From NCBI GenBank assembly GCA_019429255.1, contig JAHYIY010000026.1:1-34728 (forward strand): DNA of 34,728 nucleotides, in the 5' to 3' direction. Below the pieces are notes generated by a model. It was not told the DNA's origin and searched no databases. It saw only the letters and a program-made list of their open reading frames with translations. The position numbers were made by a program, and so were the translations under genes. Every line of letters starts with the position of its first letter. Within the stretch, counting starts at the first letter, position 1. This DNA comes from Desulfuromonadales bacterium. Lineage in GTDB: Bacteria > Desulfobacterota > Desulfuromonadia > Desulfuromonadales > Geopsychrobacteraceae. Positions 11,618 through 28,153 of the stretch are shown in pieces.

Positions 11618-11646
11618 GTTTTACTTTCATTTTACGTTAAGGTCAA
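11618..11646 (-). promoter_or_regulatory. Candidate promoter P2 of the DUF1302 gene with dyad motif at the -35 box
   Basis: On the minus strand TTGACC (11646-11641) is followed after 17 bp by TAAAAC (11623-11618). The same place reads TTTACGTTAAGGTCAA (11631-11646) on the plus strand, a dyad with the ACGTTAAGGT core found in the acyl-CoA synthetase promoter. The untranslated leader would be about 270 nt. Confidence 0.35.
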
Positions 11647-11722
11647 TATAAAAATAACGCTGTTCTGTTTTTCTTCCGGAAGGTTGTCGCGACCTGTGAG
11701 TTTGTTGAGAAGGAAATTTCCC

Positions 11723-11751
11723 TTGGCGCTAGGTAGACTAGCCTCTATAAT
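11723..11751 (+). promoter_or_regulatory. Sigma70 promoter of hemL
   Basis: TTGGCG (11723-11728) and a perfect TATAAT (11746-11751) are separated by 17 bp. Transcription would start near 11758, leaving a leader of about 200 nt before hemL that contains the hexanucleotide repeats and a small hairpin, CCGGTTA/TAACCGG (11898-11913). Confidence 0.6.
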
Positions 11752-11780
11752 GTCCAGTTGAAAGATACAAGCAGCTTGAT

Positions 11781-11834
11781 CTATCGCTATCGCTATCGCT
11801 ATCGCTATCGAAATCGATCCCGATCCCGATCCCG
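11781..11834 (+). repeat. Tandem hexanucleotide repeats in the hemL leader
   Basis: Five exact copies of CTATCG (11781-11810) are followed by AAATCG and then three copies of ATCCCG (11817-11834). A direct repeat TTTGGACAAA follows at once (about 11835-11857). The rest of the 613-bp gap between DUF1302 and hemL holds the promoters listed separately; no gene was seen in it. Confidence 0.9.
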
Positions 11835-11956
11835 ATTTGGACAAAAATTTGGACAAAGAATGTTCCCGGTGATAGGTTGCGCCTGGCGTTACCGGAGCCG
11901 GTTAGATAACCGGAAAAATCTTTTTACCCTGTCTTTATCGAAGGAGTTTGTTCTAC

Positions 11957-13246: not shown

Positions 13247-13274
13247 AGTTGCCCGTTGTGGCGCAGAAAAGCGG

Positions 13275-13303
13275 TTGACTTGGCGGGGTTGCTGTGCTAG
13301 TTA
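13275..13303 (+). promoter_or_regulatory. Promoter of the atpZIBE operon
   Basis: TTGACT (13275-13280) and TAGTTA (13298-13303) are separated by 17 bp, 43 bp before the atpZ start. The GTGCTAGT around the -10 is also present in the imcH promoter. Confidence 0.55.
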
Positions 13304-13346
13304 AAGGTCGCTTTTGCGCCCACTTCTGGGTCGGAGCAGATTGTCT

Positions 13347-13607
13347 ATGAGTGAATTGGAGCGCGAGCAGAAACGCCGGTTGTACCGCAGCCTCGGGTTT
13401 TTATCTTCCCTGGGGATTTCGATGGTGGCGGCGACCCTGCTGGGTCTGGCCATCGGCTACTATCTCGATCAATGGCTCGATACACGCCCGATTTTCACTA
13501 TAATTATGCTGATTTTCGGTATTGCTGCCGGTTTCCGTAACGTCTATGTCCTGACGTCGTGGGAGCTGCGGCGGCAACAGAAAGATCAGGACGAGAACTC
13601 CCAATGA
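13347..13607 (+). CDS. atpZ: AtpZ-like ATP synthase accessory membrane protein
   Basis: This is an 86-aa protein with a charged N-terminus (MSELEREQKRRLYRS), two transmembrane helices (about 13-38 and 48-70) and a charged tail. The pattern GLAIGYYLDQWLDTRPIFTIIMLIFGIAAGFRNVY is typical of the AtpZ/AtpI family found at the head of ATP synthase operons. Such proteins help assemble the c-ring or take up magnesium; the exact role here is inferred. An in-frame ATG-like start exists 11 codons upstream, but the ATG at 13347 gives a standard N-terminus after GGAGCAGA. The TGA overlaps the start of atpI. Confidence 0.85.
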   Translation: MSELEREQKRRLYRSLGFLSSLGISMVAATLLGLAIGYYLDQWLDTRPIFTIIMLIFGIAAGFRNVYVLTSWELRRQQKDQDENSQ

Positions 13608-13975
13608 CCGATCAGGATGCCGGTCTGGAGACAGCTCTGGCGCGGCGTAACTGGGGGATTCTGGCACTGATGGTCGCAGTCAGTCTGTTTTGGCGCTCCG
13701 CTCCGGTAACCCTCGGCGTACTTGGCGGCGGGCTGGTTATCGCCCTCAATTACCACTGGATGGGGCGCTCACTGACCAGGTTGCTGGCTGACCCGCAACG
13801 CGCGCCGCAGCGAAAAATCTTCACCGGGATCAACTATCTGTTGCGCCTGGTGGTGATGGGTCTGGTCATTTACCTGCTGCTGGTCCAGATCAAGGTTCAT
13901 CCTATTGGCCTGGCTGCCGGTTTATCGTTGTACGTTGTTAACCTGATATACAGCACGATCAGGCGCATTTATTAG
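13604..13975 (+). CDS. atpI: ATP synthase subunit I (AtpI)
   Basis: This is a 123-aa membrane protein with four predicted helices. Its ATG overlaps the atpZ stop (ATGA), so the start at 13604 is taken instead of upstream in-frame codons. AtpI proteins act as chaperones for c-ring assembly in F1Fo ATP synthases; the sequence is weakly conserved and the call rests mainly on position between atpZ and atpB and on the helix pattern. The stop is followed by 45 bp and then atpB. Confidence 0.8.
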   Translation: MTDQDAGLETALARRNWGILALMVAVSLFWRSAPVTLGVLGGGLVIALNYHWMGRSLTRLLADPQRAPQRKIFTGINYLLRLVVMGLVIYLLLVQIKVHPIGLAAGLSLYVVNLIYSTIRRIY

Positions 13976-14020
13976 TAAGTAATTAGTGGCAAATCAGCAG
14001 CAAAACGAAAGAGAGAGCTT

Positions 14021-14695
14021 ATGGTTCATCCTTTTATGTTTCTCGATTGGATCGCCGGCCTGATTAACCTGCATGTCGGTGAGCATGTTCTGTACACCTG
14101 GCTGGCGATGGCCATTCTGTTGTCCGGAGCCTGGTTGGCTGGCCGTAATATCAGTATGGTGCCGGGGAAAATGCAAAACTTCATGGAAGCGGTCATGGGC
14201 GGCTTTGACAGCCTGATCGAAAATGTCATGGGTAAGGACGGCAAACCGTACTTCCCGTTGATTGCTACCATTGGCATGTTTGTTCTGGTGAGCAACCTGC
14301 TCGGTCTGGTGCCTTCCTGCTTTCCGCCAACCGCCAGCCTTAACACCAATGCCGCGCTGGCCCTGACGGTCTTTTTCATGACCCATTATATCGGCATTAA
14401 AAAGCACGGCTATCATTACATTCAGCACTTCATGGGGCCGATCATCTGGCTGGCACCACTGATGATTATTATCGAGATCCTCAGTCATCTGGTTCGTCCC
14501 ATTTCCCTGTCGCTACGTCTGTTCGGTAACATGTATGGCAAGGAAATCGTGTTGATGATCTTTTTTGCCCTGGTGCCACTGTTCATGCCGATTCCGATCA
14601 TGTTTCTCGGGGTGTTGATCAGTATGATCCAGGCTTTTGTTTTTGTTCTTCTGTCGATGATTTATATTGCCGGCTCCCTTGAGGAAGCCCACTAA
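14021..14695 (+). CDS. atpB: F1Fo ATP synthase subunit a
   Basis: This 224-aa protein is the proton-channel subunit a of the Fo motor in the inner membrane. The essential arginine lies in [15 protein letters not shown] at about residue 166, and the family motif VSNLLGLVP is at about residues 90-98. The length fits the short delta-proteobacterial form. GAGAGAGC precedes the ATG. It is followed after 101 bp by atpE. Confidence 0.97.
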
Positions 14696-14796
14696 TATCC
14701 ATATACAGTTATTCATGCGTTCACAGGGGTGATCGCATAAGTCCTATACTTTAGGAACAATCACCATTCACAACAGCACAACAAAGGAGTAGTACC

Positions 14797-15075
14797 ATGG
14801 ATTTTTTCACCTGGAGCATTATCGCAGCAGCATTCGGTATGGGCATTGGTTCTGTCGGTACCGGTATCGGTATGGGTATCGCGATCAGCAAGGCTTGTGA
14901 AGGTGTTGCCCGCAATCCCGGCGCATCCGGTAAGATCCTGACCAACATGATGGTCGGTCTGGCCCTGATCGAGTCCCTGGCAATTTACGTTTTCGTTATC
15001 TGTATTATTGCCCTCTACGCCAACCCCTTTACTGACACGGTGGTTGAATTGCTGCGTGCCGGTATGGGCGCTTAA
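14797..15075 (+). CDS. atpE: F1Fo ATP synthase subunit c
   Basis: This 92-aa hairpin of two helices forms the rotor ring. The polar loop is ARNPGASGK, and the ion-binding glutamate is Glu59 in LALIESLAIY. Sodium-binding rings have a glutamine 33 residues before this glutamate (Gln32/Glu65 in Ilyobacter); here that position is Met26 (GIGMGIAIS), so a proton-driven ring is inferred. AAAGGAG precedes the ATG. The operon ends with a terminator, and the F1 genes are not in the window. Confidence 0.97.
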   Translation: MDFFTWSIIAAAFGMGIGSVGTGIGMGIAISKACEGVARNPGASGKILTNMMVGLALIESLAIYVFVICIIALYANPFTDTVVELLRAGMGA

Positions 15076-15108
15076 TGCACTAAGCACTAGCAACACACAG
15101 AATAATCT

Positions 15109-15143
15109 AAAAAGGCGATTCTCATGCGAGGGTCGCCTTTTTT
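15109..15143 (+). terminator. Rho-independent terminator of the atp operon
   Basis: AAAAAGGCGA (15109-15118) pairs with TCGCCTTTTT (15133-15142) around a 14-nt loop and ends in a T-run. Confidence 0.9.
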
Positions 15144-15426
15144 GTATATTGTATACAGTGTCTTGAATAGATAAATGTTTAAACTTATATATATATCAGA
15201 GTATTAGCTTCTTTTGACGGTAAATAAGAAGGGTTTTTGTTGCCTTCTTTTCAAGTTCAGAGTAGTCTTTGCCCTGTATGTTATAAATGTACATTAGCGT
15301 GTGTTGTGGCTAGTGCAAGACTGCCACCGGGGAGTGGAAAGATTTTTCTATCTCCTCCGTCTTGCCCTGGATGCATTTGCCGTTGTTTGTCAATGTGGTT
15401 CTGATAATTATCCAAGGAGAGTTTCG
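15144..15426 (+). other. AT-rich leader region upstream of the cbcL-like gene
   Basis: This gap holds no gene. A small dyad TGTATA-TTG-TATACA lies at 15143-15157, just after the terminator. No convincing promoter was found: TTGACG (15214-15219) has no good -10 partner, and TATAAA (15282-15287) has no good -35. AAGGAGA just before 15427 is the ribosome binding site of the next gene. Confidence 0.4.
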
Positions 15427-17280
15427 ATGCATAATCTTGTCTTCCTGTTGGTGTTGCTGCTGACAATGTTATCCAGTTCGCAGGCGCTGGCTGAGCCCAC
15501 TCTGGTGACTTCACCTGAAACCTGTCTGATGTGCCACAGCGATGTTGTCTCAGCTGACGGCTTTGCGACATCGGTTCATGGTCCCAACGGTTGTGTCGCC
15601 TGTCACATTGATCTGGTTGATGTTGAAGGTCATATGAGTGGCGAGGTTACCCCGCAACCACCCATGTGCGTGCGCTGTCATAAGGTCGAGACGGCGGAAC
15701 ACTATGCCAGTGTCCATATGCTGTCAGGAATCGATTGCTCAAGTTGCCATTGGGATATTCACACCCACCGGCCTTGGGCGGGTGACAAAAATATCGCTTC
15801 GGCCAAGTGTGCTGAATGTCACTTTGATACCAATGAAGTATGGCAGGAATCGAGCCACGGTCAGGCAGTCATGGCCGGAAATATGGACTCAGCCGCTTGT
15901 CTCGATTGTCACAACCTGCATGCGATCAGCGAAATTGGGCAGCCGGGTGATCCGGGCCATTGGGAGTTTCACACCGATGCCTGCATGAAGTGCCACGCTG
16001 ATCGCCAGATGATGGAGCGCAACAACGTCATGACCGTTGCGGTAAGCTCCTATTTAAGCAGTTATCACGGCAAGAATTATCGTCTTGGTTATCCTGATGA
16101 GGTAGCCGGTTGTGCAAACTGCCATACCTCTCATGCCATCTTCCCTCATAATGATCCACGTTCTACCCTGTATCCTGAGAATCTGATTGGTACCTGCGGC
16201 GCCTGTCACTCTAACTCGTCGGCGCAGTTCGTTAAATTTTATTCTCACGGCGATATGACGGATCGCGAAAACTATCCGATTTTGTGGTGGACTTTTGTCA
16301 GCATGACTACCTTGCTGGTGTCCACCTTTGGGGTGTTCTGGGTACACTCTTTGTTCTGGTTGTTCCGTGGATTTGTTGATAACCGCCAGAAACATCGTGC
16401 CATGATAGCGGGTCACTTCCATGTGATCCCCGATGCCCATAAGGTTTACCGGCGTTTCACCAAAACCCACATTTTCCTGCATTTACTGGTTATTATCAGC
16501 TTTCTGCTGTTGTCGATGACGGGTATTCCCCTGAAGTTTGCCGACCAGGAATGGGCCAAGGTGTTGATGGGTTTTTTTGGTGGAGCCCCGATGGCAGCTG
16601 ATTTGCATCGTCTCGGTGCGGTGATCACATTTGTCTACTTTGGTGTTGCTCTCTTTATGAGTGCCAAGTTCCTGTTCTACAAACTGGAATATCCGGCTGA
16701 ATTCTTCCAGCGCCTGTTCGGCCCCGAATCCCTGTGTCCCAACCTGCGTGATATTCGCGACGTTACGGCAATGGTGCGCTGGTTTTTGTTCCTTGGTCCC
16801 AAGCCGACCTTTGAGCGCTGGACCTACTGGGAGAAGTTTGACTTTATCGCGGTCTTTTGGGGTATGTTTGCTATCGGTGGTTCAGGTTTGATGCTCTGGT
16901 TCCCGGAGTTCTTTGCCGCCTTCCTGCCCGGTTGGTCGCTCAATGTGGCCACCATCATCCATTCGGATGAGGCGTTGCTGGCAACCGGCTTCATCTTTAC
17001 CGTCCACTTCTTCAATACCCATGGACGTCCGGAGAAGTTCCCCATGGACTTCGTTATCTTTAATGGCGAGTTGAGTAAAGAAGAGTTCATCGAGGAACGT
17101 GCTGACCAGTGGCAGCGTTATGAAGAAGCAGGTATTCTCGATCAGTACATTAAAGAAAAACCCAGTGGTATCGCTTATGATTTCATCATTAAAACCTTTG
17201 GTTTCCTCGCCTTGTTTATTGGTCTTGGGTTGCTGGTATTGATGATCTATGCCTTCCTCCTGGGTGGCCATACGCATTAA
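15427..17280 (+). CDS. cbcL: CbcL-type inner-membrane nonaheme cytochrome c / cytochrome b fusion
   Basis: This 617-aa protein begins with a signal peptide (MHNLVFLLVLLLTMLSSSQALA). A periplasmic part follows with nine CxxCH haem sites at about residues 33, 56, 81, 104, 128, 158, 186, 229 and 257. The C-terminal half has about six transmembrane helices resembling cytochrome b561/hydrogenase b subunits, with several helix histidines that could bind haem b (THIFLHLLV, LHRLGAVITF, IHSDEALLA, VHFFNTH). Nine c-haems fused to such a b domain is the layout of Geobacter sulfurreducens CbcL, which passes menaquinol electrons to low-potential extracellular acceptors. The ATG at 15427 follows AAGGAGA; an upstream in-frame start would add 42 residues in front of the signal peptide and is rejected. 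A small membrane protein gene follows. Confidence 0.85.
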   Translation: MHNLVFLLVLLLTMLSSSQALAEPTLVTSPETCLMCHSDVVSADGFATSVHGPNGCVACHIDLVDVEGHMSGEVTPQPPMCVRCHKVETAEHYASVHMLSGIDCSSCHWDIHTHRPWAGDKNIASAKCAECHFDTNEVWQESSHGQAVMAGNMDSAACLDCHNLHAISEIGQPGDPGHWEFHTDACMKCHADRQMMERNNVMTVAVSSYLSSYHGKNYRLGYPDEVAGCANCHTSHAIFPHNDPRSTLYPENLIGTCGACHSNSSAQFVKFYSHGDMTDRENYPILWWTFVSMTTLLVSTFGVFWVHSLFWLFRGFVDNRQKHRAMIAGHFHVIPDAHKVYRRFTKTHIFLHLLVIISFLLLSMTGIPLKFADQEWAKVLMGFFGGAPMAADLHRLGAVITFVYFGVALFMSAKFLFYKLEYPAEFFQRLFGPESLCPNLRDIRDVTAMVRWFLFLGPKPTFERWTYWEKFDFIAVFWGMFAIGGSGLMLWFPEFFAAFLPGWSLNVATIIHSDEALLATGFIFTVHFFNTHGRPEKFPMDFVIFNGELSKEEFIEERADQWQRYEEAGILDQYIKEKPSGIAYDFIIKTFGFLALFIGLGLLVLMIYAFLLGGHTH

Positions 17281-17354
17281 TTGGCCGCAATTTTTAGCTG
17301 AATATTCGGGGCTGCCGGCTGGTGGCCCCGAATTGTTTGTAGAGATCATTAACA

Positions 17355-17588
17355 ATGAACAATATGCAAAAAGATTTAATTCTGTCGATTTTCTCTCTTG
17401 GTGTTTACATCGTTGGCGGTTTGACGACCTTTGTCGGCGTCGGTATTGTGATCCTGATGAAGGGGAAAGATCTCTGGGGCTGGGGTGATGCCTACGGCAT
17501 CGGCTACCTGATGATCTGTGTCGGGCTGGTACTAACGATTCTGGGGGTCCTGGTGATGCGGATTGTGAGAAACCGTTTCAAGATCTAG
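17355..17588 (+). CDS. Small two-helix membrane protein
   Basis: This 77-aa protein has two predicted transmembrane helices (about residues 7-34 and 49-70) joined by KGKDLWGWGDAYG, and ends in basic residues (RIVRNRFKI). I do not recognise a family. It lies 74 bp after the cbcL-like gene on the same strand and may be a subunit or assembly partner of that cytochrome; this is inferred from position only. The ribosome binding site is weak (AGAG at about 17341). Confidence 0.6.
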   Translation: MNNMQKDLILSIFSLGVYIVGGLTTFVGVGIVILMKGKDLWGWGDAYGIGYLMICVGLVLTILGVLVMRIVRNRFKI

Positions 17589-17712
17589 CATTTGTTAGGC
17601 GCCTTGATAAATTGGCCGGCAAGATTAAAATTTTTTAGCTCCAAGGACTCTTGTCTGAGTTTTTTCAGCGGGTTGCACGTTGATTTTTTATGAATCAGGG
17701 CGGCCGAGGGCA

Positions 17713-17741
17713 TTGACAAATAGCAAGCAAAGTGCTAGTGA
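17713..17741 (+). promoter_or_regulatory. Promoter of the imcH-like gene
   Basis: A perfect TTGACA (17713-17718) is followed after 17 bp by TAGTGA (17736-17741) within GTGCTAGTGA. The remaining part of the 266-bp gap after the small membrane protein shows nothing else clear. The 11-mer ATTGACAAATA at the -35 recurs at 21752 before the next cytochrome operon. Confidence 0.55.
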
Positions 17742-17854
17742 ATCGGCACTTTTTTGAACATATCCTGGTAGAAGAGCAAATTCACCATCTCAATGTGCCG
17801 CTCGAGCAGCAATAATGTTCGACCAATAATGTCCCACCCGCAGGAGGAAAACGA

Positions 17855-19339
17855 ATGGAAGACAATCAGAAAAAGAATGACACGGGTGTCACGTCAACCA
17901 GTTTGGCAGATATCCCCAAAACTTTTTTCAAAGGAATTGCGAAAAGTAGAGTATCGCTAGTCGGCGCTATGGCCGTAACGGTGATCTTTCCGTTTCTGGT
18001 CGGAGCTGTACTTTACGACCTGGCATTCGGCATTCCCAATACCTATTTTGCCGGCCTGGTTTATATGGTGCTTGGTCCGGGATTTATCGGTGGGCTGGTG
18101 CTGATATTTATCGGCTTGTTTTTTTCCAAGGGGAAAGAAGAGGTTCGTCTTTTTACCCTGGCCTATTTTCGGGATAAGCTGGCCGACGATTCAGGCTTCG
18201 ATCGTTTGCGCAAGATGATTTTTATCGGGGTATTTTTGACCTGTATTAACCTGTTTGTCGTCGGTGTTCTTGCCTATAGCGGTTATCACTATATGGAATC
18301 CAATGCGTTCTGTGGCGAGTTCTGTCATGTGCCCATGACGCCTGAATATACCGCTTATCAGAATTCTGCTCACTCCCGTGTTGCCTGTGTCGATTGTCAC
18401 ATCGGCAGCGGCGCCAAGTGGGTGGCTAAATCAAAGATCTCCGGCGTGCGCCAGCTCTATGCTGTAGTTGCTGATACCTTTGCCCGTCCCATCGCAACTC
18501 CGGTTCACGGATTGCGTCCGGCCAGTGGTACCTGTATGGAGTGCCATCGTCCGGAAATGTTCCACGGCGATCGTTTGCGCATCAAGGACAAGTTTTTGGA
18601 GGATGAGGCCAATACTCATGTCCAGACCGTGTTGCTGATGAAGATTGGCAGTGCCGGTGATCAGGCGTCAGAGTCCCATGGCATTCACTGGCATGTGGAT
18701 CCGGGCAACGAAATTACTTATGTAGCTGCCGATTGGGAACGCAGTATCATACCGGAAGTCATGCAAAGGAAAGCAGACAGCGGCGTGCTTGTTTATCGCG
18801 ACAGCGATGCTGAAGAACAGATCGCTAATGCGACTCATCTGCAGGAACGGGTTATGGATTGTATCGATTGTCACAACCGACCAAGCCATGTCTACCTTGG
18901 TGCTGATGAAGCCCTTGATAAAAAAATTCTCACTCGTGACATTCCCCAGGAGCTTCCCTACGTTAAACGGCAGGCCAAGGCCGTTGTAGCTGTTGAGTAT
19001 CCATCTCACGATGCAGCACGAACTGCCATTGCCAGTGAACTGCGTACCTTTTACCGGAATAACTATCCGGAGCTTTATAGCGAGAAACAATATCTGGTTG
19101 ATCAAGCGATTGCCGGAACACAGGCCGCCTACGTTGAAAATGTATTTCCGGAGATGCAGATCCAGTGGAATACTTACGCCAACTGGATGAGCCACGATGG
19201 CTGTTTTCGTTGTCATAATTACCAGCACGAAGCAGCAACCGGTGAGTTGATCGCCATGGACTGTGATACGTGTCATACGGTGCTGGCCGAAGAAGAGCAC
19301 AAGCCCGCGATCCTGAAACAACTCCTCGGGATGAACTGA
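17855..19339 (+). CDS. imcH: ImcH-type NapC/NirT family inner-membrane multiheme cytochrome c
   Basis: This 494-aa protein has three N-terminal transmembrane helices (about residues 34-56, 66-90 and 121-145) and a periplasmic haem domain. The first haem site is CGEFCH (CX3CH, residues 153-158), normal for this subfamily. Five CX2CH sites follow: CVDCH (178), CMECH, CIDCH, CFRCH and CDTCH. The block FCGEFCHVPMTPEYTAYQNS and ACVDCHIGSGAKWVAKSK is characteristic of NapC/NirT proteins. Three helices plus this haem domain match ImcH of Geobacter sulfurreducens, needed for electron transfer to higher-potential extracellular acceptors. A strong AGGAGG precedes the ATG. It has its own promoter and terminator. 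It could instead be another NapC-like quinol dehydrogenase, so the symbol is given with moderate certainty. Confidence 0.75.
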   Translation: MEDNQKKNDTGVTSTSLADIPKTFFKGIAKSRVSLVGAMAVTVIFPFLVGAVLYDLAFGIPNTYFAGLVYMVLGPGFIGGLVLIFIGLFFSKGKEEVRLFTLAYFRDKLADDSGFDRLRKMIFIGVFLTCINLFVVGVLAYSGYHYMESNAFCGEFCHVPMTPEYTAYQNSAHSRVACVDCHIGSGAKWVAKSKISGVRQLYAVVADTFARPIATPVHGLRPASGTCMECHRPEMFHGDRLRIKDKFLEDEANTHVQTVLLMKIGSAGDQASESHGIHWHVDPGNEITYVAADWERSIIPEVMQRKADSGVLVYRDSDAEEQIANATHLQERVMDCIDCHNRPSHVYLGADEALDKKILTRDIPQELPYVKRQAKAVVAVEYPSHDAARTAIASELRTFYRNNYPELYSEKQYLVDQAIAGTQAAYVENVFPEMQIQWNTYANWMSHDGCFRCHNYQHEAATGELIAMDCDTCHTVLAEEEHKPAILKQLLGMN

Positions 19340-19373
19340 GGAACAGGATCGACAAACCGCCAGGTAATCAAGC

Positions 19374-19417
19374 ACCAAACAAAAAGCCCCGCATTACTGC
19401 GGGGCTTTTTGTTTGGT
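19374..19417. terminator. Bidirectional rho-independent terminator
   Basis: A perfect 19-bp stem (19374-19392 with 19399-19417) has a 6-nt loop ATTACT, GC-rich top (GCCCCGC) and A/T-rich base, giving T-runs on both strands. It lies between the convergent imcH-like and 595-aa membrane protein genes and can serve both. Confidence 0.95.
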
Positions 19418-19448
19418 AGTGGCTGACATGCCAGCTGGCACCACAGGT

Positions 19449-21236
19449 CTAGGCTGGTGTCAGATGTTCCTTATCCGGCTCCTTGCGGTCCTTCCAGCGA
19501 GCCAGAATCAGGGACTGCAGGGCCGCGGCAATGCCGAAGGCAAGCAGTCCAACGACCAGCCAGGGACCGCTGATCTGCAGCATGTCATAGACGAAAACCT
19601 TGGCCCCCCCCATGACCATGATGAGACAAGACAGGTTACGCAGTTCCCGGTTGTTACGGTAGGCAGCAAGGGACATGAGCACAATCGCGGTACCATTAAT
19701 CAGCAGGGAGACCAGGCCGGTAAAGGCAACGTTAAGCTCTCCGCTATAATTGCGACTCAAGATGAAATAGCCCAGGGCCGAGGCTGCGATCAGTGCGATG
19801 GACAGGCCACTAAGCAGCGGCAAGGCCGCACTGCGGTCGTGGGTGTCGTAGCGGGAGAAGGCGACTGATTCAGCCGGCGGCGGATTCTGACGGCAATAGC
19901 TGTAGTGGTGGATCGCCAGGTAAGCGCTGATCAGCGCAATGCTCATTAAGGGTACCGGAGCAACGGTGAGGTTGGCAAGGGCCTCCATGGCGATGATCAC
20001 AAGGATATAGCCCTGTAAAACATAGGAGGTGATGCGCATGCCGCCACTGCTCCAGATGTTGGAGCAGATGCAGATGCCAAGGGCAAGGAGCGATAAAAAC
20101 GGCAGGGGTAGCAACATTCCGCCCATCAGAGCCGGCAGGGACAGTCCCGCCAGAATCACCCCGCCGGCGGTAAAGGTATTGGTGCCGGGTGCATTGACGC
20201 GCTTGCGCTGGGCCAGCCAGAACACCAGAGCGAAGTGGAATCCGGCAGCAATGGCAGCAGGTACGCCGAACAATTCCGGACTCTTGAGCGCGTAGATTCC
20301 CGCGACGTAACACCAGGCAGCATTGATGGCAGGCAGACTGTAGTCGAATTTGGATATTTTTTCGTCGCCACTGCGGATAATGCCAAACAGGGAAATCAGC
20401 ACGAAGGTGAAGCCGATCAGGGTGACAATGGGAACAAACCAGCCTGCACTGATATGTTGCTGCGTCGCTGTGCCACTGAGCACGCCACTGATTTTAAGAC
20501 CCCAGATCTGGAGCATGAAATGGGTCGTCAGCATCAGCAACCAGCGTAGCCAGGAGCAGCGCTTGATCCGGGAAGCGAAGAAACCAAGGATATTGGACAG
20601 CCACAGCATGAGCCCGAGATAAGGAAAGTAGGGGTTGGGATAATCGATAACTACCGCAGCCCAGCACATGCCCAGAGTGCCCACGATAATTGGTAGCGAG
20701 ACCTTGCGGTCAAGGCTGATAAGCGCCATCGCAATGCCTGTGACAGCCATCAGCAGATAGACGATTTCTACCGGGACGGAGGAAAAGCGGATGTGGGTCT
20801 CCATCAGAACACTGAACATCAGTATTGCACCGATGATGGTGAACAGGGGCGCCATACTACTTGCACGTCGGTAGAGGGCATAACCTGCACCAATCAACAG
20901 AGAGGCATAGGCGATGCCAAGAATTGTGCCCAGCCGCATGTTGATTAGATCGTTATCTCCCAATGCCCGAAGCCCCAGGCCGATAACCAGCAGAAAACAC
21001 ACTGCTGAAATATGTTTGAGCAGGGAACTGCCACTGACTAACAGCGATCGCTCTTCATTCAAAGCGGGGCTTTTGGTCTGTTTGGCAGGTTTTATGACAG
21101 GATCCGTAGCTTGTTGCATTGGCTGTTCAAGTAACTGCGTTTGATTTTCCAGCTGGCCGACTCGAACGGTAAGAAGAGCAACCTGTTGGATCAGTTCTTC
21201 TACTCGTTCAGAAAGACTGACTTGATCATGGGTCAT
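19449..21236 (-). CDS. Large polytopic membrane protein with N-terminal coiled coil (DUF2339-like layout)
   Basis: This 595-aa protein starts with a heptad-like segment (SLSERVEELIQQVALLTVRVGQLENQTQLLEQ) and a polar linker. About 15 or more hydrophobic helices follow, and it ends in a charged tail (RWKDRKEPDKEHLTPA). A coiled coil followed by many helices resembles the DUF2339 family, but I see no sequence motif that decides it. There are no obvious catalytic residues. It stands alone, convergent to imcH and divergent from the six-gene respiratory operon. A GG-poor region precedes the ATG at 21236, so initiation may be weak. Function unknown. Confidence 0.75.
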   Translation of the reverse strand: MTHDQVSLSERVEELIQQVALLTVRVGQLENQTQLLEQPMQQATDPVIKPAKQTKSPALNEERSLLVSGSSLLKHISAVCFLLVIGLGLRALGDNDLINMRLGTILGIAYASLLIGAGYALYRRASSMAPLFTIIGAILMFSVLMETHIRFSSVPVEIVYLLMAVTGIAMALISLDRKVSLPIIVGTLGMCWAAVVIDYPNPYFPYLGLMLWLSNILGFFASRIKRCSWLRWLLMLTTHFMLQIWGLKISGVLSGTATQQHISAGWFVPIVTLIGFTFVLISLFGIIRSGDEKISKFDYSLPAINAAWCYVAGIYALKSPELFGVPAAIAAGFHFALVFWLAQRKRVNAPGTNTFTAGGVILAGLSLPALMGGMLLPLPFLSLLALGICICSNIWSSGGMRITSYVLQGYILVIIAMEALANLTVAPVPLMSIALISAYLAIHHYSYCRQNPPPAESVAFSRYDTHDRSAALPLLSGLSIALIAASALGYFILSRNYSGELNVAFTGLVSLLINGTAIVLMSLAAYRNNRELRNLSCLIMVMGGAKVFVYDMLQISGPWLVVGLLAFGIAAALQSLILARWKDRKEPDKEHLTPA

Positions 21237-21577
21237 AACTGAATCCTCACACCAATATTAAGATGGTTCACGAACAGAAGCCTTTTTCGATAATTTTTGC
21301 GTTAATCTGCGCTGTTGCATATGCGACGTAACGTACTAGTTTTCGGCTCAACTCCTTGAATCTTTTAGCCTTGCGAAAATTTGCCGGTTACCAACGCGTA
21401 AAACTCGCCAATGGATCTTCGAAGCTTCCGGATGGTAAAGAAATAGGATCAGACACGTAAAAAATAGAACGTAGTTATTTATAAATGAGTTTTTAGCTGA
21501 TTTCCATAATTATTTTTAATTGAAAAAGCTTCTCAAAAACAAAAATAAATATGAAAAAACAAGTATGGATTTAATTG
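21237..21577. other. AT-rich intergenic region with a possible structured repeat
   Basis: No gene is seen. Between about 21270 and 21400 there are several self-complementary pieces, such as GTTGCATATGCGAC (21312-21325, pairing with itself with two G-U pairs), GCGTTA (21299-21304) with TAACGT, and AATTTTTGC with GCGAAAATT. The 9-mer GACGTAACG is shared with the 153-bp palindrome at 4126-4278. This could be a decayed repeat, but the arms are too imperfect to be sure. From 21470 on the sequence is very AT-rich. Confidence 0.3.
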
Positions 21578-21609
21578 CCTAAAACCAAATTATTCATGTA
21601 GGTTTTAGG
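21578..21609. promoter_or_regulatory. Perfect 9-bp inverted repeat, candidate operator or hairpin
   Basis: CCTAAAACC (21578-21586) and GGTTTTAGG (21601-21609) flank a 14-bp spacer, about 150 bp upstream of the predicted promoter of the six-gene operon and in the divergent region with the 595-aa membrane protein. A short AT-rich stretch follows it. It could be a regulator site or a weak terminator of readthrough. Confidence 0.35.
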
Positions 21610-21752
21610 AGGGAATTATTTTTAAAAAAGAAACCTTGACAAAAAAAAACAAGGGTTTAGTTTTCAAGATAATGTTTTATTTTGTCGTAAACGAAAAGGG
21701 TTGTTGCGAAAAACCATGCCTTCAGACCACAGTTGGTTTTGTCCCTGAACAA

Positions 21753-21835: not shown

Positions 21836-22450
21836 GTGAAAATCAATCTCCGGCGATCACTGTCTTTGGCCATCGGCTTGACGGCCCTTGGCGCAACCTT
21901 GATCTCGGCGGCCGAAGTCGAAAAATTCTTTGACCGTCAGGGCAATCTGGTTGTTCAGGAAAAAGTTGAAAAGTACAAGCGGCGTGCTGACGAAGGCACC
22001 AGCTATCCGGTGCCGCCACCACCATTTTCCGATGGGATCTTCCCCTGTTCTGACTGCCACGCAGGCATGGAACCCGATCCGGAACGGCGCGAACTGGTCG
22101 GTATGCATGCTGATATCATCCTCGACCATGCCGAAGGGCAGCGCTGGTGCCTGGACTGTCATAATCTCAACGACCGCGACAGCTTGCGCCTGGTGAATGG
22201 CGACCTCATTCCGTTCACCGAGTCCTACCTGCTTTGCGGCCAGTGTCACGGCGACAAGTTGCGCGACTGGAAAGTTGGCATTCACGGCAAGCGGACCGGT
22301 TACTGGAACGGCGAAAAGCAGTATCTGCTCTGCGCCCACTGCCACGACCCGCACAGCCCGAGTTTCAAGCCCTTGGCACCGATGCCGCCGCCCATTCGCC
22401 CCGAGAACATCAGGCGCGAGGCAGCTCCTGTCGCGCCCGTTCCTCATTAA
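21836..22450 (+). CDS. Periplasmic tetraheme cytochrome c (first module)
   Basis: This 204-aa protein has a signal peptide (KINLRRSLSLAIGLTALGATLISAA) and four CxxCH sites: CSDCH (71), CLDCH (105), CGQCH (134) and CAHCH (166). It has a proline-rich tail (PLAPMPPPIRPENIRR). The start is GTG at 21836 because GGAGGA lies 7 nt before it; an earlier in-frame ATG at 21773 would bury the signal peptide. It heads an operon with an iron-sulfur protein and an NrfD protein, so it is the likely electron-accepting periplasmic subunit of a quinol-oxidising complex of the Nrf/Cbc/alternative complex III kind. The nearest named relative cannot be set by eye. Confidence 0.85.
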   Translation: MKINLRRSLSLAIGLTALGATLISAAEVEKFFDRQGNLVVQEKVEKYKRRADEGTSYPVPPPPFSDGIFPCSDCHAGMEPDPERRELVGMHADIILDHAEGQRWCLDCHNLNDRDSLRLVNGDLIPFTESYLLCGQCHGDKLRDWKVGIHGKRTGYWNGEKQYLLCAHCHDPHSPSFKPLAPMPPPIRPENIRREAAPVAPVPH

Positions 22451-22488
22451 GCCAAAAAGACTGACAACCTCATTCAGAGGAGATCGAT

Positions 22489-23415
22489 ATGTGCAACGAT
22501 TCGAAATGCGACAAGCAGGCCTTTCAGAAGTCCCGTCGCAAGGTGCTTAAAGGACTTGCCGCCGGAATTGGCGTGCTGGCACTGCCGGCTCCCGATGCCG
22601 CCGCATCGGTTTGGGAAACTTTTTTTCAGAAGCATTTTCGTGAGCTGACCAGGGATGAGCTCAAGAAAGTACTGGCCCGCCTCGAGAGCAACTACAGCAA
22701 AGAGTTTGGCCAGCAGGTCAGCGTTAAGGCAACACCGCCGATAGAGGGCGTCAAGTTCGGCTACGGCCTCGATCTGTCACGCTGCATCGGCTGCCGGCGC
22801 TGCGTCTATGGTTGCGTCACCGAAAACAACCAGTCCCGCGAGCCGCAAATCCAGTGGATTCGCGTACTACAGCTCGACAAGGAAAAAGGCGTCTCCCTGG
22901 AACACGCCAAACACTACTACAACCCGCCAGAGGTGCCGACAGAGGGGCACTTTTACATGCCCGTACAGTGTCAGCAGTGTGAAAACCCTCCCTGTACGAA
23001 AGTCTGTCCTGTGCAGGCGACATGGATGGAGAAGGACGGCATCGTCGTTGTCGACTACAACTGGTGCATCGGCTGTCGCTACTGCATGGCAGCCTGCCCT
23101 TATGGTGCGCGCCATTTCAACTGGGCCAAAAGCAAGCTGCCCAAAGAAGAACTGAATCCGAATACCCATTATCTCGGTAACCGGCCAAGACCGACCGGCG
23201 TCGTGGAAAAGTGCACCTTCTGCATCCAGCGGACACGCGAACAGCCTGGCCGCTACCCGGCCTGTGAGGAGGTCTGTCCGGTCGGTGCCCGCAAGTTCGG
23301 CAATCTCCTTGATCCCAAAGGTGAAATCCGCTACCTGATCGAGAACAAGCGTGTGTTTATTCTCAAGGAAGACCTCAATACGCAACCGAAATTCTTCTAT
23401 TTCTATGCGACCTAA
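22489..23415 (+). CDS. Tat-exported ferredoxin-type subunit with four [4Fe-4S] clusters (NrfC-like, first module)
   Basis: This 308-aa protein has a twin-arginine signal (KSRRKVLKGLAAGIGVLALP, residues 14-33) preceded by two unusual cysteines (MCNDSKCDK). A helical stretch of about 50 residues follows, then four cluster motifs: CIGCRRCVYGC (99-109), CQQCENPPCTKVCPVQA, CIGCRYCMAACPYGAR, and CTFCIQRTREQPGRYPACEEVCP. This is the NrfC/PsrB/DmsB electron-wire pattern. The protein would sit on the periplasmic face, bound to the NrfD protein encoded 17 bp downstream, and pass electrons between quinol and the tetraheme cytochrome. AGAGGAGA precedes the ATG. Confidence 0.92.
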   Translation: MCNDSKCDKQAFQKSRRKVLKGLAAGIGVLALPAPDAAASVWETFFQKHFRELTRDELKKVLARLESNYSKEFGQQVSVKATPPIEGVKFGYGLDLSRCIGCRRCVYGCVTENNQSREPQIQWIRVLQLDKEKGVSLEHAKHYYNPPEVPTEGHFYMPVQCQQCENPPCTKVCPVQATWMEKDGIVVVDYNWCIGCRYCMAACPYGARHFNWAKSKLPKEELNPNTHYLGNRPRPTGVVEKCTFCIQRTREQPGRYPACEEVCPVGARKFGNLLDPKGEIRYLIENKRVFILKEDLNTQPKFFYFYAT

Positions 23416-23432
23416 CTTTTGGGAGTAGTCAG

Positions 23433-24746
23433 ATGAAAAATATCTGGAATTTTTTCAAAGGGACTCTGGTTCTGACCGCCCGGGGGAGCACTGCCTATTA
23501 TTGCTGGGTATTCAGCCTGCTGGCCCTGATGGTAATCGGCGCCTTTGCCTACGTGGTGCAGCTCAACGAAGGCCTGATCGTCACCAACATGCGCAACCAG
23601 GTCTCCTGGGGCTTCTACATCTCGAATTTCACTTTTCTGGTTGGCGTCGCCGCGGCTGCGGTTCTGCTGGTCATTCCGGCATACGTCTATCACTGGAAGC
23701 CGATCAAGGAAATCGCCCTGCTCGGGGAATTGCTGGCCGTTTCGGCAATCATCATGTGCCTGCTTTTCGTTACGGTCGACATCGGTCGACCGGACCGCTT
23801 CTGGCATCTGATTCCGTTTGTCGGCATTCTGAATTTTCCACAATCATTACTGGCCTGGGACGTGGTCGTTCTCAATCTCTACCTGACCCTCAACCTCACC
23901 ATCGCCGTTTATTACCTGTACAACCTTTATTACAAGCGGGTCCCGAACAAGAATTTCATAACGCCCCTGCTGCTCTTCTCGATACCGGCGGCAATTTCCA
24001 TTCACACGGTGACGGCCTTCCTGTATAACGGGCTCGGGGCACGTCCGTTCTGGAATGCGTCGATTCTCGCCCCGCGTTTCCTGGCTTCAGCGTTCTGTTC
24101 CGGGCCGGCTTTCATGATCCTGGTGTTCTTCCTGGTTCGCAAGTTCACTCGCTTCCAGATCAAGGACGAAGCGATCCAGAAAATTGCCGAGCTGATCGCC
24201 TACGCGATGTTCGTCAACCTCTTTCTGTTGGGCGCCGAAATCTTCAAGGAATATTACACCGGCACCGTTCACCTGGCACCGATGCAGTACCTGCTCCAGG
24301 GTCTGCACGGGTACAATGCCCTGGTCCCCTGGATCTGGACAGCCATGATTTTCAATATTACGGCGTTCCTGATCTTTTTGATCCCAAACACGCGACGCAA
24401 CAACACGACCCTGATCCTCGGCTGCGTTCTGATCTTTATCGGCGTCTATATCGAAAAGGGGATGGGCCTGGTCATTCCCGGTTTTGTTCCCGATGTCCTA
24501 CACGAAATCTACGAATATCTTCCTTCAGGGTTGGAGATGGTGCTTGCCCTGGGGATATGGGCAACCGGTTTGTTTGTCTTCACGATGCTGCTGCGGGTGG
24601 CGATCCCCATTATGAACGGCGACTTCCACGTTGCCGACGACGGCGTCGGATCCTACATCGGTGACCAGATGTTCCTGGTGAAAACCAAGGACAAACCACA
24701 GCCAGGGTCTAAACCGGGGGATGAAATTGCGGCTGCCGACGATTGA
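23433..24746 (+). CDS. NrfD-family quinol-interacting membrane subunit (first module)
   Basis: This 437-aa protein has about ten predicted transmembrane helices, from STAYYCWVFSLLALMVIGAF to GLEMVLALGIWATGLFVF, and a polar C-terminal tail of about 45 residues. It has the NrfD/PsrC pattern with a conserved acidic region, WGFYISNFTFLVGVAA near the N-terminus and NASILAPRFLASAFCSGPAF in the middle. Such proteins hold the quinol site and anchor the ferredoxin subunit. GGGAGTA lies before the ATG. A 100-bp gap without visible signals separates it from the second cytochrome gene. Confidence 0.9.
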   Translation: MKNIWNFFKGTLVLTARGSTAYYCWVFSLLALMVIGAFAYVVQLNEGLIVTNMRNQVSWGFYISNFTFLVGVAAAAVLLVIPAYVYHWKPIKEIALLGELLAVSAIIMCLLFVTVDIGRPDRFWHLIPFVGILNFPQSLLAWDVVVLNLYLTLNLTIAVYYLYNLYYKRVPNKNFITPLLLFSIPAAISIHTVTAFLYNGLGARPFWNASILAPRFLASAFCSGPAFMILVFFLVRKFTRFQIKDEAIQKIAELIAYAMFVNLFLLGAEIFKEYYTGTVHLAPMQYLLQGLHGYNALVPWIWTAMIFNITAFLIFLIPNTRRNNTTLILGCVLIFIGVYIEKGMGLVIPGFVPDVLHEIYEYLPSGLEMVLALGIWATGLFVFTMLLRVAIPIMNGDFHVADDGVGSYIGDQMFLVKTKDKPQPGSKPGDEIAAADD

Positions 24747-24846
24747 CACGGAAAACCCCGGATTTTGGCTGTCTGCTGAGAACCTGCATTGCAAGCTTGC
24801 TCTGCCATAACATAACGAAACCATCCACTGGGTAAGGGAGATCGCT

Positions 24847-25335
24847 GTGAAGAGTCATGTCTGGCGACCGCTGTTCGTGGTTTTGGGTCTTGTCGCCGGG
24901 ATCCTGCTGTTCCGGGCGTATTACGTTCCGGGAACCTTCGGTTCCGGCGAATACGGCTTCATGTACAGCTACCACAACAAGGAGAATCTGGAGTATTGGA
25001 AGAATCAGCCGGTGCGGTACCGGGATACCGGCAAGCAGAAGATGCATGAATACTGCGGCGAATGCCATGCTGAGGAAGTTGAGGTCCGCACCGAGGACAT
25101 GCACGGTATCATCGCCTGCGAGAACTGCCACGGTCCGGCCCTGAAACATCCGGACGAGCCACATATGCTGTTCGTCGATCGCGGCCGCGATGTTTGCCTG
25201 CGCTGCCATACGCAGCTCCCCTATACGACCAGTGAGCGCAAGCGTATCCCGGGTATCGATTCCAACGAGCATAATCCGGGCTTGGCCTGTGTCGATTGTC
25301 ATAACCCGCACAATCCGAGACTGGAGGACATGTAG
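24847..25335 (+). CDS. Membrane-anchored tetraheme cytochrome c (second module)
   Basis: This 162-aa protein starts with GTG after AAGGGAGA. It has one N-terminal hydrophobic segment (about residues 7-24) that is followed by no clear cleavage site, so a membrane anchor is likely. Four haem sites follow: CGECH (70), CENCH (91), CLRCH (117) and CVDCH (148). The end CVDCHNPHNPRLEDM is short. It is not alignable by eye with the first cytochrome beyond the haem sites. Its stop codon lies 2 bp before the next start, so it is coupled to the iron-sulfur gene. Confidence 0.87.
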   Translation: MKSHVWRPLFVVLGLVAGILLFRAYYVPGTFGSGEYGFMYSYHNKENLEYWKNQPVRYRDTGKQKMHEYCGECHAEEVEVRTEDMHGIIACENCHGPALKHPDEPHMLFVDRGRDVCLRCHTQLPYTTSERKRIPGIDSNEHNPGLACVDCHNPHNPRLEDM

Positions 25336-25337
25336 TT

Positions 25338-26114
25338 ATGAAGAGGCGTGATTTCATGAAAAGCACGATTATTGCCATTGCCGGCGCCTCGGTTCCTCTC
25401 TCTGCTCTCGAGTTTATCGATCCGAAAGAGGTTCTCGCGGCTAATCCCGAGATCCACTGGGCGTTTCTGATCAACACCTATACCTGCGTCGGCTGCGGTT
25501 TCTGCGTTAAAGCGTGCAAGACCGAAAATGACGTGCCGTTCGAGGCGAACGTCAGCCGTACCTGGGTCGAGCGCTACGTCTACACCAAGGACGACCGCCG
25601 CTATATCGACAGTCCGCAGGCGGCCCTCTATGGTTTCACCGAATCGAAAATTGACCTGGGCGCACGCCTCGGCTTCAAGGAGATCGATCCGGACAACGTC
25701 GGCAAGGCGTTTTTCGTGCCGAAGCTCTGCAACCATTGTGCGGCACCGTCCTGTACCCAGGTCTGCCCGGTCGGCGCCACCTATAAAACCGACGACGGCG
25801 TGGTGCTGGTCGATCGTTCCTGGTGTATCGGCTGCGGCTACTGCATTATGGCCTGCCCCTTCGGTGCCCGGTACTTTCACCCGGTGCACCACGTGGCTGA
25901 TAAATGCACTTTCTGTTACCATCGCATCACCAAAGGGCTGGAAACCGCCTGCGTCAACGCCTGCCCCTTCGGTGCGCGCAAGATGTGCAATATCAGGGAC
26001 ATCAATGATCCGATCACCAAGATCATTCTCAACGACCGGGTTGGCGTCCTGAAAGACGAATTTGGTACCAAGCCCCAGGCCTTCTATATCGGCCTCGCCT
26101 CGGAGGTGCGTTAA
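25338..26114 (+). CDS. Tat-exported ferredoxin-type subunit with four [4Fe-4S] clusters (NrfC-like, second module)
   Basis: This 258-aa protein has a canonical twin-arginine signal (MKRRDFMKSTIIAIAGASVP). Its four cluster motifs are CVGCGFCVKACKTEN (50-64), CNHCAAPSCTQVCPVGA, CIGCGYCIMACPFGAR, and CTFCYHRITKGLETACVNACPFGAR. It differs from the first NrfC-like protein in having a short linker after the signal and in much of its sequence, so the two are old paralogues. The ribosome binding site GGAGGA lies inside the end of the cytochrome gene. The NrfD partner starts 2 bp after its stop. Confidence 0.93.
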   Translation: MKRRDFMKSTIIAIAGASVPLSALEFIDPKEVLAANPEIHWAFLINTYTCVGCGFCVKACKTENDVPFEANVSRTWVERYVYTKDDRRYIDSPQAALYGFTESKIDLGARLGFKEIDPDNVGKAFFVPKLCNHCAAPSCTQVCPVGATYKTDDGVVLVDRSWCIGCGYCIMACPFGARYFHPVHHVADKCTFCYHRITKGLETACVNACPFGARKMCNIRDINDPITKIILNDRVGVLKDEFGTKPQAFYIGLASEVR

Positions 26115-26116
26115 TC

Positions 26117-27406
26117 ATGGTTGAGCAAGTTATGACCGTTCACGGAGAACTCTGGACCGTTAAGGAACTCTTCGTTCTTCCCAATGAATATGTTTACTGG
26201 TCGATCCAGATCGTTATGTACCCTTTCATGACGGGCCTGGTCGCCGGAGCCTTCGTTTTATCTTCTCTTTACCATGTGTTCGGGGTCAAGCAGCTCAAAG
26301 AGATCGCTCGCTTCTCCCTGGTTTTCTCCTTTGCGCTGTTGCCGGTTGCCATGATGCCGCTCCTGCTGCATCTGGCTCAACCTTTCCGGGGCTTCCATGT
26401 CCTGATGACACCGCATTTCACTTCGGCGATCTCGGCTTTCGGCATCGTTTTCATGGCCTACGCCTGCATCGTCGCCTCAGAGCTCTGGTTCGAGTACCGC
26501 AAGCATTTCGTCCTGACCACGCAGGGCCTGGCGGCACGGTCAGCACGATCCGGTTTTGATACCCTACGCATGCACTTTTTCAAAATATTGACTCTCGGGG
26601 CCATGGATATCAGTGAGGAGGCTGTTGCCAAGGACCACAAGGCAGTCAAGAAACTGGCGATGCTGGGAATTCCGGTCGCCTGTTTCCTGCATGGCTATGC
26701 CGGCTTCATCTTCGGTTCGGTCAAGGCCAACGCGCTCTGGATGACGCCGCTGATGCCGGTTATCTTCATCTGTTCGGCGGTGGTCTCCGGGATTGCTCTC
26801 TGTATCGTTTGCTACGTCGTCACCATGGAAATCCGCAAGTTCATGGCCAAGCGTAAAATCAGTCGCTGGGCCGCCGATAAAACCGCGCCCACGGTCACCG
26901 AGTTGAATTCGGCGCAGCAGCAGGAAATCGGCATTGTCTCCAATTATCTGCTCTATTTCATGATCGCAGCCCTCACCCTGGAGATTCTTGACCTGATCTT
27001 CCGCGGCTATACCCAGGTGAAGTCGTGGGATATTCTTCGTGAAGTCATCATGGAGCGCGACTTTACCAAGATTTTCATCATGCAGTACGCCATCGGCAAC
27101 GCACTGCCTTTCCTGATGATGGTTCTGCCGGGACGCACAGTGCGCAGGACAACAATTGCCGCCTGCTTGGTCATATTCGGTGTGTTCATGATGCGCTGGA
27201 ACGTTGTTATCGGCGGCCAGGCCTTCTCTTTGAGCTTTGCCGGCTTCATGCATTACCACCTGCCAATCCTGCCGACAACTTGGGAAACCTTTCGCGAAGG
27301 CCTGGCCGGTGCGCTGACGGTTATGGCAACACCGTTCGTGATTTTCTGGTTCCTGAACAAAATCTTCCCGGCCTTCCTCGAAGAAAGGAAAATCGAAAAA
27401 GCATAA
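26117..27406 (+). CDS. NrfD-family quinol-interacting membrane subunit (second module)
   Basis: This 429-aa protein has about nine predicted helices, including YWSIQIVMYPFMTGLVAGAF, FTSAISAFGIVFMAYACIVA and WNVVIGGQAFSLSFAGF; the last resembles the RWNVVIGGQ segment common in PsrC/NrfD proteins. A GGAGGTG in the end of the preceding gene serves as ribosome binding site. It closes the six-gene operon; no terminal reductase, molybdopterin or nitrite reductase subunit is encoded in the window. The complex therefore probably transfers electrons between menaquinol and cytochromes. Confidence 0.9.
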   Translation: MVEQVMTVHGELWTVKELFVLPNEYVYWSIQIVMYPFMTGLVAGAFVLSSLYHVFGVKQLKEIARFSLVFSFALLPVAMMPLLLHLAQPFRGFHVLMTPHFTSAISAFGIVFMAYACIVASELWFEYRKHFVLTTQGLAARSARSGFDTLRMHFFKILTLGAMDISEEAVAKDHKAVKKLAMLGIPVACFLHGYAGFIFGSVKANALWMTPLMPVIFICSAVVSGIALCIVCYVVTMEIRKFMAKRKISRWAADKTAPTVTELNSAQQQEIGIVSNYLLYFMIAALTLEILDLIFRGYTQVKSWDILREVIMERDFTKIFIMQYAIGNALPFLMMVLPGRTVRRTTIAACLVIFGVFMMRWNVVIGGQAFSLSFAGFMHYHLPILPTTWETFREGLAGALTVMATPFVIFWFLNKIFPAFLEERKIEKA

Positions 27407-27489: not shown

Positions 27490-27837
27490 TTCCATTCTGA
27501 TAATTATCAGCATGATGCAGAGATTTCCAAAAGAGATGGGCAGATCGTGTGGAAAGATTCCTGTGTGTTTGCCATGAATGTCGAAGGTAAGATACTGGCG
27601 CACCCTTTTATGCCCGGCCTGATGAGCATGGGCAATCTGCTGTTGACACCGGACAAAAATGTGGAAGAACCGAAAAAGCTCTTTGTTGAATTTGTAGTTG
27701 TCGCAAGCACTAAAGGCGAAGGTTGAGGTGATTATTTGTGGCCGAAGCCGGGAAGAACAACTCCCTCGATAAAAGAAACCTACATCTACCGCGTACCGGA
27801 TACCAATATGTTTGTTGGTGCCGGAATGTACCGGTAA
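27490..27837 (+). pseudogene. Remnant of a Cache-domain protein with an in-frame TGA
   Basis: One frame reads HDAEISKRDGQIVWKDSCVF, then AMNVEGKILAHPFMPGLM, and after a TGA at 27724-27726 continues with GDYLWPKPGRTTPSIKETY and IYRVPDTNMFVGAGMYR to TAA at 27835. This follows a single Cache sensor domain, in which the usual GEGWVDYxWPKP has tryptophan where the TGA stands; TGG to TGA is one base change. No start codon, signal peptide or ribosome binding site is found in this frame, as a TGA at 27487 closes it. Intact relatives are small exported sensors of about 150 aa. It is probably a decayed gene; the region between 27407 and 27489 holds nothing else clear. Confidence 0.7.
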
Positions 27838-28153
27838 CCGTTTTGATGTTATTGCGTTAAATTTTCAGGATTGCAGGAAAAAGAGTTTTTGGAGGCGCTC
27901 ATTTTTAGTGGGCGCTTTTTTTCTGGGCTTTGCCAGGGGAATCGGATGGCCCGTGAACGTGAATCTGTCTTCTGTACACTGTGCGCATTTCTTCACCATC
28001 ATGGCCGGAGCATACTGGTTGGAACGCTCCACCCACATGGAGAAGTATTCTGTGCAATACCAGGTCAGGGCAAAGAGGGTGACAAGGGTGATGATCAAGG
28101 TTGGGGTCAGCAGTTTTTTCCAGATGAGCGAATCCTTGTTTGATTAGAACTGT
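27838..28153. other. Intergenic region with a possible second gene remnant
   Basis: On the minus strand a frame is open from 28143 to 27865. It would read WKKLLTPTLIITLVTLFALT, a good transmembrane helix, and later SNQYAPAMMVKKCAQCTEDR. A ribosome-binding-like AAGGA lies before an ATC codon where an ATG would be expected; the remaining start choices are TTG at 28098 or ATG at 28038. It may be the broken start of a membrane protein. The family is not recognised. Confidence 0.25.
27895..27922 (+). terminator. Rho-independent terminator
   Basis: GCGCTCA (27895-27901) pairs with TGGGCGC (27909-27915), one G-U pair, and is followed by seven T. It would end transcripts from the Cache remnant or read-through from the NrfD operon. 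Confidence 0.7.

Follow-up and report, generated by a model that had tools for sequence, protein, structure and literature searches.

Six co-oriented genes, here called A to F, were analysed in a stretch of 34,728 nucleotides (the window), which is contig C47 in the 2.74 Mb genome of a Desulfuromonadales bacterium from the genus of Pelovirga terrestris. The genes occupy positions 21836-27406 of the forward strand and form two three-gene sets, ABC and DEF, each encoding a tetraheme c-type cytochrome, a 4x[4Fe-4S] protein and a membrane protein of the NrfD family. We favour, at about even confidence, a reading of ABCDEF as a conserved cassette in which two quinol:cytochrome c oxidoreductase modules, each complete with three subunits, would provide a route from the inner membrane into extracellular electron transfer (EET). 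The distribution of the genes indicates that DEF is widespread and ABC an optional extra, and that the six genes are inherited mostly as one unit. The arrangement is more than chance because it recurs in dozens of genomes, and the paired unit combines known kinds of module in a new way, apparently undescribed in the openly accessible literature. ABCDEF would be a strong further candidate entry to EET in Desulfuromonadales, beside the ImcH- and CbcL-type genes. From the sequences we infer the quinone chemistry, the direction of flow, the carriers, the role in EET and the independent working of each module.

Gene content and family membership

The initial annotation of this DNA had described two different tetraheme cytochrome, iron-sulfur (FeS) and NrfD sets directly in a row, with 2-bp spacing in the second, and all six genes were confirmed as intact open reading frames. 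Gene A (21836..22450, +) encodes a cytochrome with four CXXCH motifs, which matched Pfam Paired_CXXCH_1 / Cytochrome_C7. Its start was set at the GTG at 21836, which has GGAGGA ahead of it, while the alternative ATG at 21773 lacks such a site. The product of B (22489..23415, +) is a DsrO-like 4x[4Fe-4S] protein with an RR (Tat-like) start and 16 cysteines arranged as four cluster motifs, and that of C (23433..24746, +) is an NrfD-family membrane protein of the DsrP/ActC class with about 10 helices by hydropathy. In the second set, D (24847..25335, +) encodes a cytochrome with four CXXCH motifs and a single hydrophobic helix at the N-terminus, probably a membrane anchor. It is followed by E (25338..26114, +), whose 4x[4Fe-4S] product resembles TtrB, DsrO and NrfC but stays under their cut-offs, begins with an RR (Tat-like) start, MKRRDF, and carries 16 cysteines within four cluster motifs, and by F (26117..27406, +), an NrfD-family membrane protein with NrfD-type quinone-site residues and about nine helices by hydropathy. 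The Sec and Tat signals of A, B, D and E were judged by eye, without a predictor, that of A as Sec-like. The gap between C and D is 100 bp and those of D-E and E-F are 2 bp each; in the C-D gap a weak scan found no promoter- or terminator-like site on the + strand. We infer that A-F are transcribed as one operon.

Proteins C and F shared only 20% identity over 281 columns. A recent duplication as the origin of the two modules was therefore ruled out, and the earlier view of the modules as old and distinct held. Both proteins belong to the NrfD superfamily PF03916 (C 143.8 and F 117.8 bits; Pfam cut-off 25.8). C passed the NCBI DsrP model (425.5 bits; cut-off 350). F passed none of the three curated models listed for it, and its score with the curated NrfD model was 38.6 bits, far under the cut-off of 347.6. 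With the QrcD model (cut-off 570) both were far too low, at 45.7 bits for C and 22.7 bits for F, and with the DsrO model (cut-off 200) B and E reached 170.1 and 163.1 bits. AlphaFold2 (AF2) models were obtained with a mean predicted local distance difference test score (pLDDT) of 78.7 for C and 76.5 for F. ActC chains were the best Foldseek matches of both models and ActF came next, and VIA-align, applied to F only, agreed with this ranking.

Pfam was run on 20 window proteins, A-F among them (the genes at 13559 and 33917 lay outside the scan), and revealed no catalytic redox subunit such as a molybdopterin protein or a nitrite reductase, and no ActB-type subunit; both absences had been noted in the initial annotation. 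The DsrP score of C and the DsrO-like character of B would suit a derivation of ABC from DsrMKJOP, as a remnant or a variant, with a role in the metabolism of sulfur or sulfite. We judged this very unlikely on the model scores and the absence of dsrA, which had no match anywhere in the genome. B stays under the DsrO cut-off, A carries four hemes against three in DsrJ, and no DsrMK was present among the 20 scanned proteins, to which the search for DsrM and DsrK was confined.

Quinone sites, proposed electron path and known relatives

Six quinone-site residues are listed for NrfD in PMC8076601, where ActF of alternative complex III is said to be without the conserved Ser and acid/His of the quinone site. 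When F was compared with E. coli NrfD (hhalign probability 85.7, E 5.4e-6), Y35, H85, S103 and Y194 of F aligned with Y21, H74, S92 and Y162 of NrfD, four of the six listed residues, and these four were invariant in 57/57 F sequences. For C, residues D116, S138, D143 and Y150 were kept in 41/41 aligned sequences and Y62 in 38/41; in the alignment with ActC, D116 fell on H139, S138 on S164 and D143 on D169. Seventeen of the 20 residues in the DsrP1 row of PMC8076601 were met in window C at offsets of +10 to +15 (R152, K162 and T194 were unmet), a match that is suggestive rather than direct because the offsets were fitted without the D. vulgaris sequence itself. Since C and F both retain the Ser and acid/His that ActF lacks, they would represent two quinone-reactive modules and not an ActC/ActF-like pair, and an analogy to ActC and ActF with one silent site was rejected on these residues.

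In the favoured reading of two modules, menaquinol would be oxidised at a periplasmic-side site of C (Y62, D116, S138, D143) and of F (Y35, H85, S103, Y194). Within each module, electrons would run through the four clusters of its ferredoxin (B or E) to its own tetraheme cytochrome (A or D), for delivery to PpcA-type periplasmic carriers, towards EET beside CbcL and ImcH. Because the two sites come from different NrfD subfamilies (DsrP-like and NrfD-like), the modules probably have different potentials or partners. B and E of the window each have a tyrosine inside the third cluster motif (CxGCxYC), which, compared by motif without a QrcC alignment, resembles the essential tyrosine demonstrated in QrcC (PMC13059093).

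The two modules might instead run in opposite directions, one oxidising menaquinol and the other reducing menaquinone with periplasmic electrons in a Qrc-like manner, for electron uptake, direct interspecies electron transfer (DIET) or a redox loop. NrfD/FeS pairs are known to work both ways (Qrc versus Act), the different subfamilies of the C and F sites would suit such a division, and the 10-helix layout of C is that of the class containing QrcD. We nevertheless regard it as distinctly improbable, given the low QrcD score of C and the type of the neighbouring CbcL and ImcH, which are quinol oxidases.

Among known systems, CbcSTU (Cbc4) was the closest by composition, in line with the partial likeness to Geobacter Cbc clusters suggested earlier. 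It consists of a 4-heme cytochrome, a 4Fe-4S ferredoxin and a membrane subunit (PMC10989804, PMC11434368), the last being annotated as NrfD-like in PMC11434368 and named a b-type cytochrome in PMC10989804. This composition equals that of ABC and of DEF, as compared with GSU0068-0070 by description only. The CbcSTU operon is said to be highly conserved among Geobacteraceae (PMC11434368), DEF likewise being widespread in the class, and G. metallireducens carries two CbcSTU sets (PMC10989804). CbcT is counted as a DsrO orthologue (PMC11434368), which would fit B too. However, CbcSTU is one three-gene unit, whereas ABCDEF is a tandem of two NrfD subfamilies; no match named G. sulfurreducens was present among the best 80 of 395 F matches listed. 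The six-subunit CbcMNOPQR was rejected as a match, its subunits being described as 10-heme, 5-heme and b-type; CbcOP is orthologous to CbcVW (PMC11434368), which is Rieske and b-type (PMC10989804).

The cytochrome-FeS-NrfD order of ABC is common to DsrJOP, whose DsrP model C passes, but in DsrMKJOP the cytochrome DsrJ is triheme, whereas A and D are tetraheme and ABC is paired with DEF. Alternative complex III has two NrfD proteins per cluster, as here, and its ActC is the nearest solved fold for C and F. It differs in its ActB (molybdopterin-type + FeS), of which the scanned window proteins held none, while two separate FeS proteins and cytochromes occur here and both NrfD proteins keep the quinone site. 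An FeS + NrfD pair that feeds periplasmic cytochromes is also found in NrfBCD and in SirCD (for SirCD, PMC11434368), and F has the four NrfD quinone-site residues given above. Unlike NrfABCD, the 20 scanned window proteins included no NrfA (SirA was not searched), and F lies under the NrfD cut-off. QrcABCD shares the periplasmic FeS protein, the 10-helix NrfD protein and the site serine, and the FeS-protein tyrosine looks equivalent, but its cytochrome has six hemes against four here and no QrcB-like molybdopterin-fold protein was among the scanned window proteins. According to PMC10504309, DsrO homologues occur next to NrfD genes whose function is unclear; these may include ABC.

Distribution, linkage and probable joint inheritance

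F was present in 29/60 genomes in a closer survey of relatives (E<=1e-10) and in 153/277 in a survey of the class (E<=1e-60), in which C was found in 56/277. C of at least 75% identity occurred at 41 places in 40 genomes, and at 33 of these an F of at least 76% lay directly downstream on the same strand, with a C-to-F distance of 1353-2012 bp; the six-gene order is thus conserved in relatives. The other eight C places comprised four cut at contig ends, where D and part of E were still visible (G095, G096, G113, G246:C646), two with ABC beside DEF on the opposite strand (G128, G129) and two without DEF (G242, G244). In G129, D and E were visible and F was cut off, and in G128 the 421-residue matched segment of C was free of stops. 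G242 and G244 are not among the genomes with F, and their C is followed by the gene (an aminotransferase by eye) that follows F in related loci. F of at least 76% was found at 36 places, with C upstream in 33 and less than 1.1 kb of upstream contig in the remaining three, and in most F-bearing genomes F was 62-74% identical, with C of 75% absent. From these counts, DEF is therefore usually solo, and C of the kind with at least 75% identity is seldom without DEF. Separate halves in relatives, named in the initial annotation as an argument for two unrelated complexes, were thus found for DEF, which is without ABC in most F genomes, and not in general for C, which was without nearby DEF at 2/41 places. 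That each set occurs solo, DEF in most F genomes and ABC in two genomes, speaks for two modules.

F sequences from 107 loci, with 80 of 395 F matches listed, gave a tree of 94 distinct proteins, in which all those encoded immediately downstream of ABC made up a single clade (30 rows, support 100/99; surroundings unknown for 2/30). Geobacter argillaceus (L065) is the one named isolate with the six genes among these listed matches. This clade mixed rows titled Desulfuromonadales and Geobacteraceae, and F of the six-gene type was found in the order of the window and in other families of the class. The F of Pelovirga stood outside it, beside F proteins from the window's family that occur solo, and F of the opposite-strand case L128 and of Nitrospirota also fell outside. 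The deep placement of the Nitrospirota and CBS-like clades in the C tree is unsure because of a long-branch warning. Pairwise protein distances over 22 loci and the window were correlated across the modules (r 0.74-0.85), within ABC (0.70-0.82) and within DEF (0.87-0.88), and none of 2000 permutations reached any observed r, which fits a joint inheritance of ABC and DEF. The order was D-E-F-A-B-C in the Nitrospirota metagenome-assembled genomes (MAGs) L093, L122 and L124, L123 stopping within A, and in L117 A-B-C was followed by two other genes and then D-E-F. The loci titled Nitrospira or Nitrospirae came from 17 genomes. Four of these carried C of at least 60%, in every case no more than about 3.2 kb from DEF; the remaining C matches were at 41-47%, and one genome had none.

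These data bear on the main, though tentative, alternative, in which the six proteins would form one complex with a C-F membrane heterodimer and B/E and A/D as a joint wire, ActC/ActF-like but with two live quinone sites. It would agree with the adjacent and co-oriented ABC and DEF in 33/41 places, with a cross-module distance correlation at the level found within ABC, with a pairing that persists in some Nitrospirota despite the changed order, and with the Foldseek ranking of ActC first and ActF next, in which VIA-align concurred for F. We consider it rather unlikely, as DEF is solo in most F genomes, ABC is solo in two and on the opposite strand in two, and the likeness to ActC is only at family level. 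Somewhat less probable still is the specific form of a single complex whose two live quinone sites, one of the 10-helix DsrP type and one of the 9-helix NrfD type, would each have their own FeS/tetraheme wire. If true, it would be a dual-input quinol:cytochrome c oxidoreductase coupling two menaquinol oxidations, or two potentials, for extracellular respiration.

Further ABC-related loci were observed in the survey. L125 and L126 have ABC without DEF and are nested within the six-gene clade of the C tree, and DEF was probably lost there; 3-heme and 12-heme cytochrome genes lie divergently upstream of their ABC. In the C-like clade of 60-63% identity, A- and B-like genes adjoined in 2/3 stretches read. 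L132:7863-9569 and L133:2597-4297 encode a DsrP-like NrfD protein, about 60% identical to C, with a C-terminal extension resembling a CBS pair by eye. The gene in L132 adjoins two genes resembling aldehyde:ferredoxin oxidoreductases, and that in L133 is followed by A and B homologues. A distant ABC-like triad (39/55/47% identity) is present at L145:4010-9350, with the tetraheme gene first and an 11-heme cytochrome of 789 aa thereafter, and no DsrMK-like gene was noticed alongside.

Neighbouring genes and the cassette within the genus

Upstream of the cassette, the window carries genes for a CbcL-type protein (15301..17280, +), with nine CXXCH and a membrane part at the C-terminus that weakly matches formate-dehydrogenase-gamma, and for an ImcH-type NapC/NirT-like multiheme protein (17855..19339, +), with five CXXCH and one CX3CH. 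They are followed by the gene of a DUF2339 membrane protein (19449..21236, -), a recurrent neighbour of DEF and ABCDEF. The setting was surveyed in 40 non-Nitrospirota and seven Nitrospirota loci, each with at least 4.5 kb on either side of F, and a protein was taken as ImcH-like at 30% or more over at least 300 aa. An ImcH-like or CbcL-like gene was found in 35/40 non-Nitrospirota loci (ImcH-like 29, CbcL-like 21), and a DUF2339 gene in 22/40. In D. soudanensis (G048, L157), whose ImcH and CbcL are DSOUD_0207 and DSOUD_0214 (PMC4914508), D, E, F and DUF2339 lie between the ImcH-type gene and the CbcL-type gene; the literature passages on that locus make no mention of these four. The window ImcH-type and CbcL-type proteins are each 63% identical to the counterpart at the imcH/cbcL place of this species. 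In D. acetexigens, homologues of ImcH and CbcL are expressed on electrodes (PMC12133095). The CbcL- and ImcH-type neighbours suggest a role of the cassette in EET.

Several points weigh against two quinol-oxidising modules that serve EET as one cassette. The joint inheritance and the swapped yet adjacent order in some Nitrospirota would suit one physical complex equally well, and the distance correlation, made without a control gene, would also be compatible with plain common descent. NrfD modules also work towards quinone reduction, as in Qrc, and sequence gives no direction. Two of the listed NrfD residues differ in F, Thr163 being Ala in 57/57 F sequences and Asp15 being replaced by Ser/Thr/Ala. 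A strict pairing is disfavoured by 15 C-like places at 43-49% identity, which, like eight at 60-63%, are on contigs without a listed F; both groups fall outside the ABC kind studied here. In the setting survey, 5/40 non-Nitrospirota loci showed neither an ImcH-like nor a CbcL-like gene in the stretch examined, and an ImcH- or CbcL-type gene was found in 0/7 Nitrospirota loci, DUF2339 likewise in 0/7.

Within the genus, window positions 10957-21287 (hemL, CbcL-type, ImcH-type, DUF2339) are collinear with Pelovirga terrestris at 86% DNA identity. The stretch at 21424..21730 (strand not assigned) is 78% identical to the sequence preceding DEF in P. terrestris and is possibly a promoter region common to both. 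At the spot of the window ABCDEF, P. terrestris has DEF alone, with protein identities of 48, 65 and 69% for D, E and F. Based on the F tree and the collinear flank, the simplest reading would be that the six-gene cassette replaced DEF in the window lineage by horizontal transfer. The other two genomes of the genus had neither F nor C. Since ABCDEF seems to have replaced the simpler DEF at a common spot within one genus, sister species with and without ABC would provide a natural experiment. None of the window genes beyond F turned up within 6.4 kb behind F of P. terrestris, so that this comparison gave no right border for the cassette. Between F and the FtsX permease gene of the window, a seeming degenerate coding remnant at 27550-27840 resembled a sensor domain by eye.

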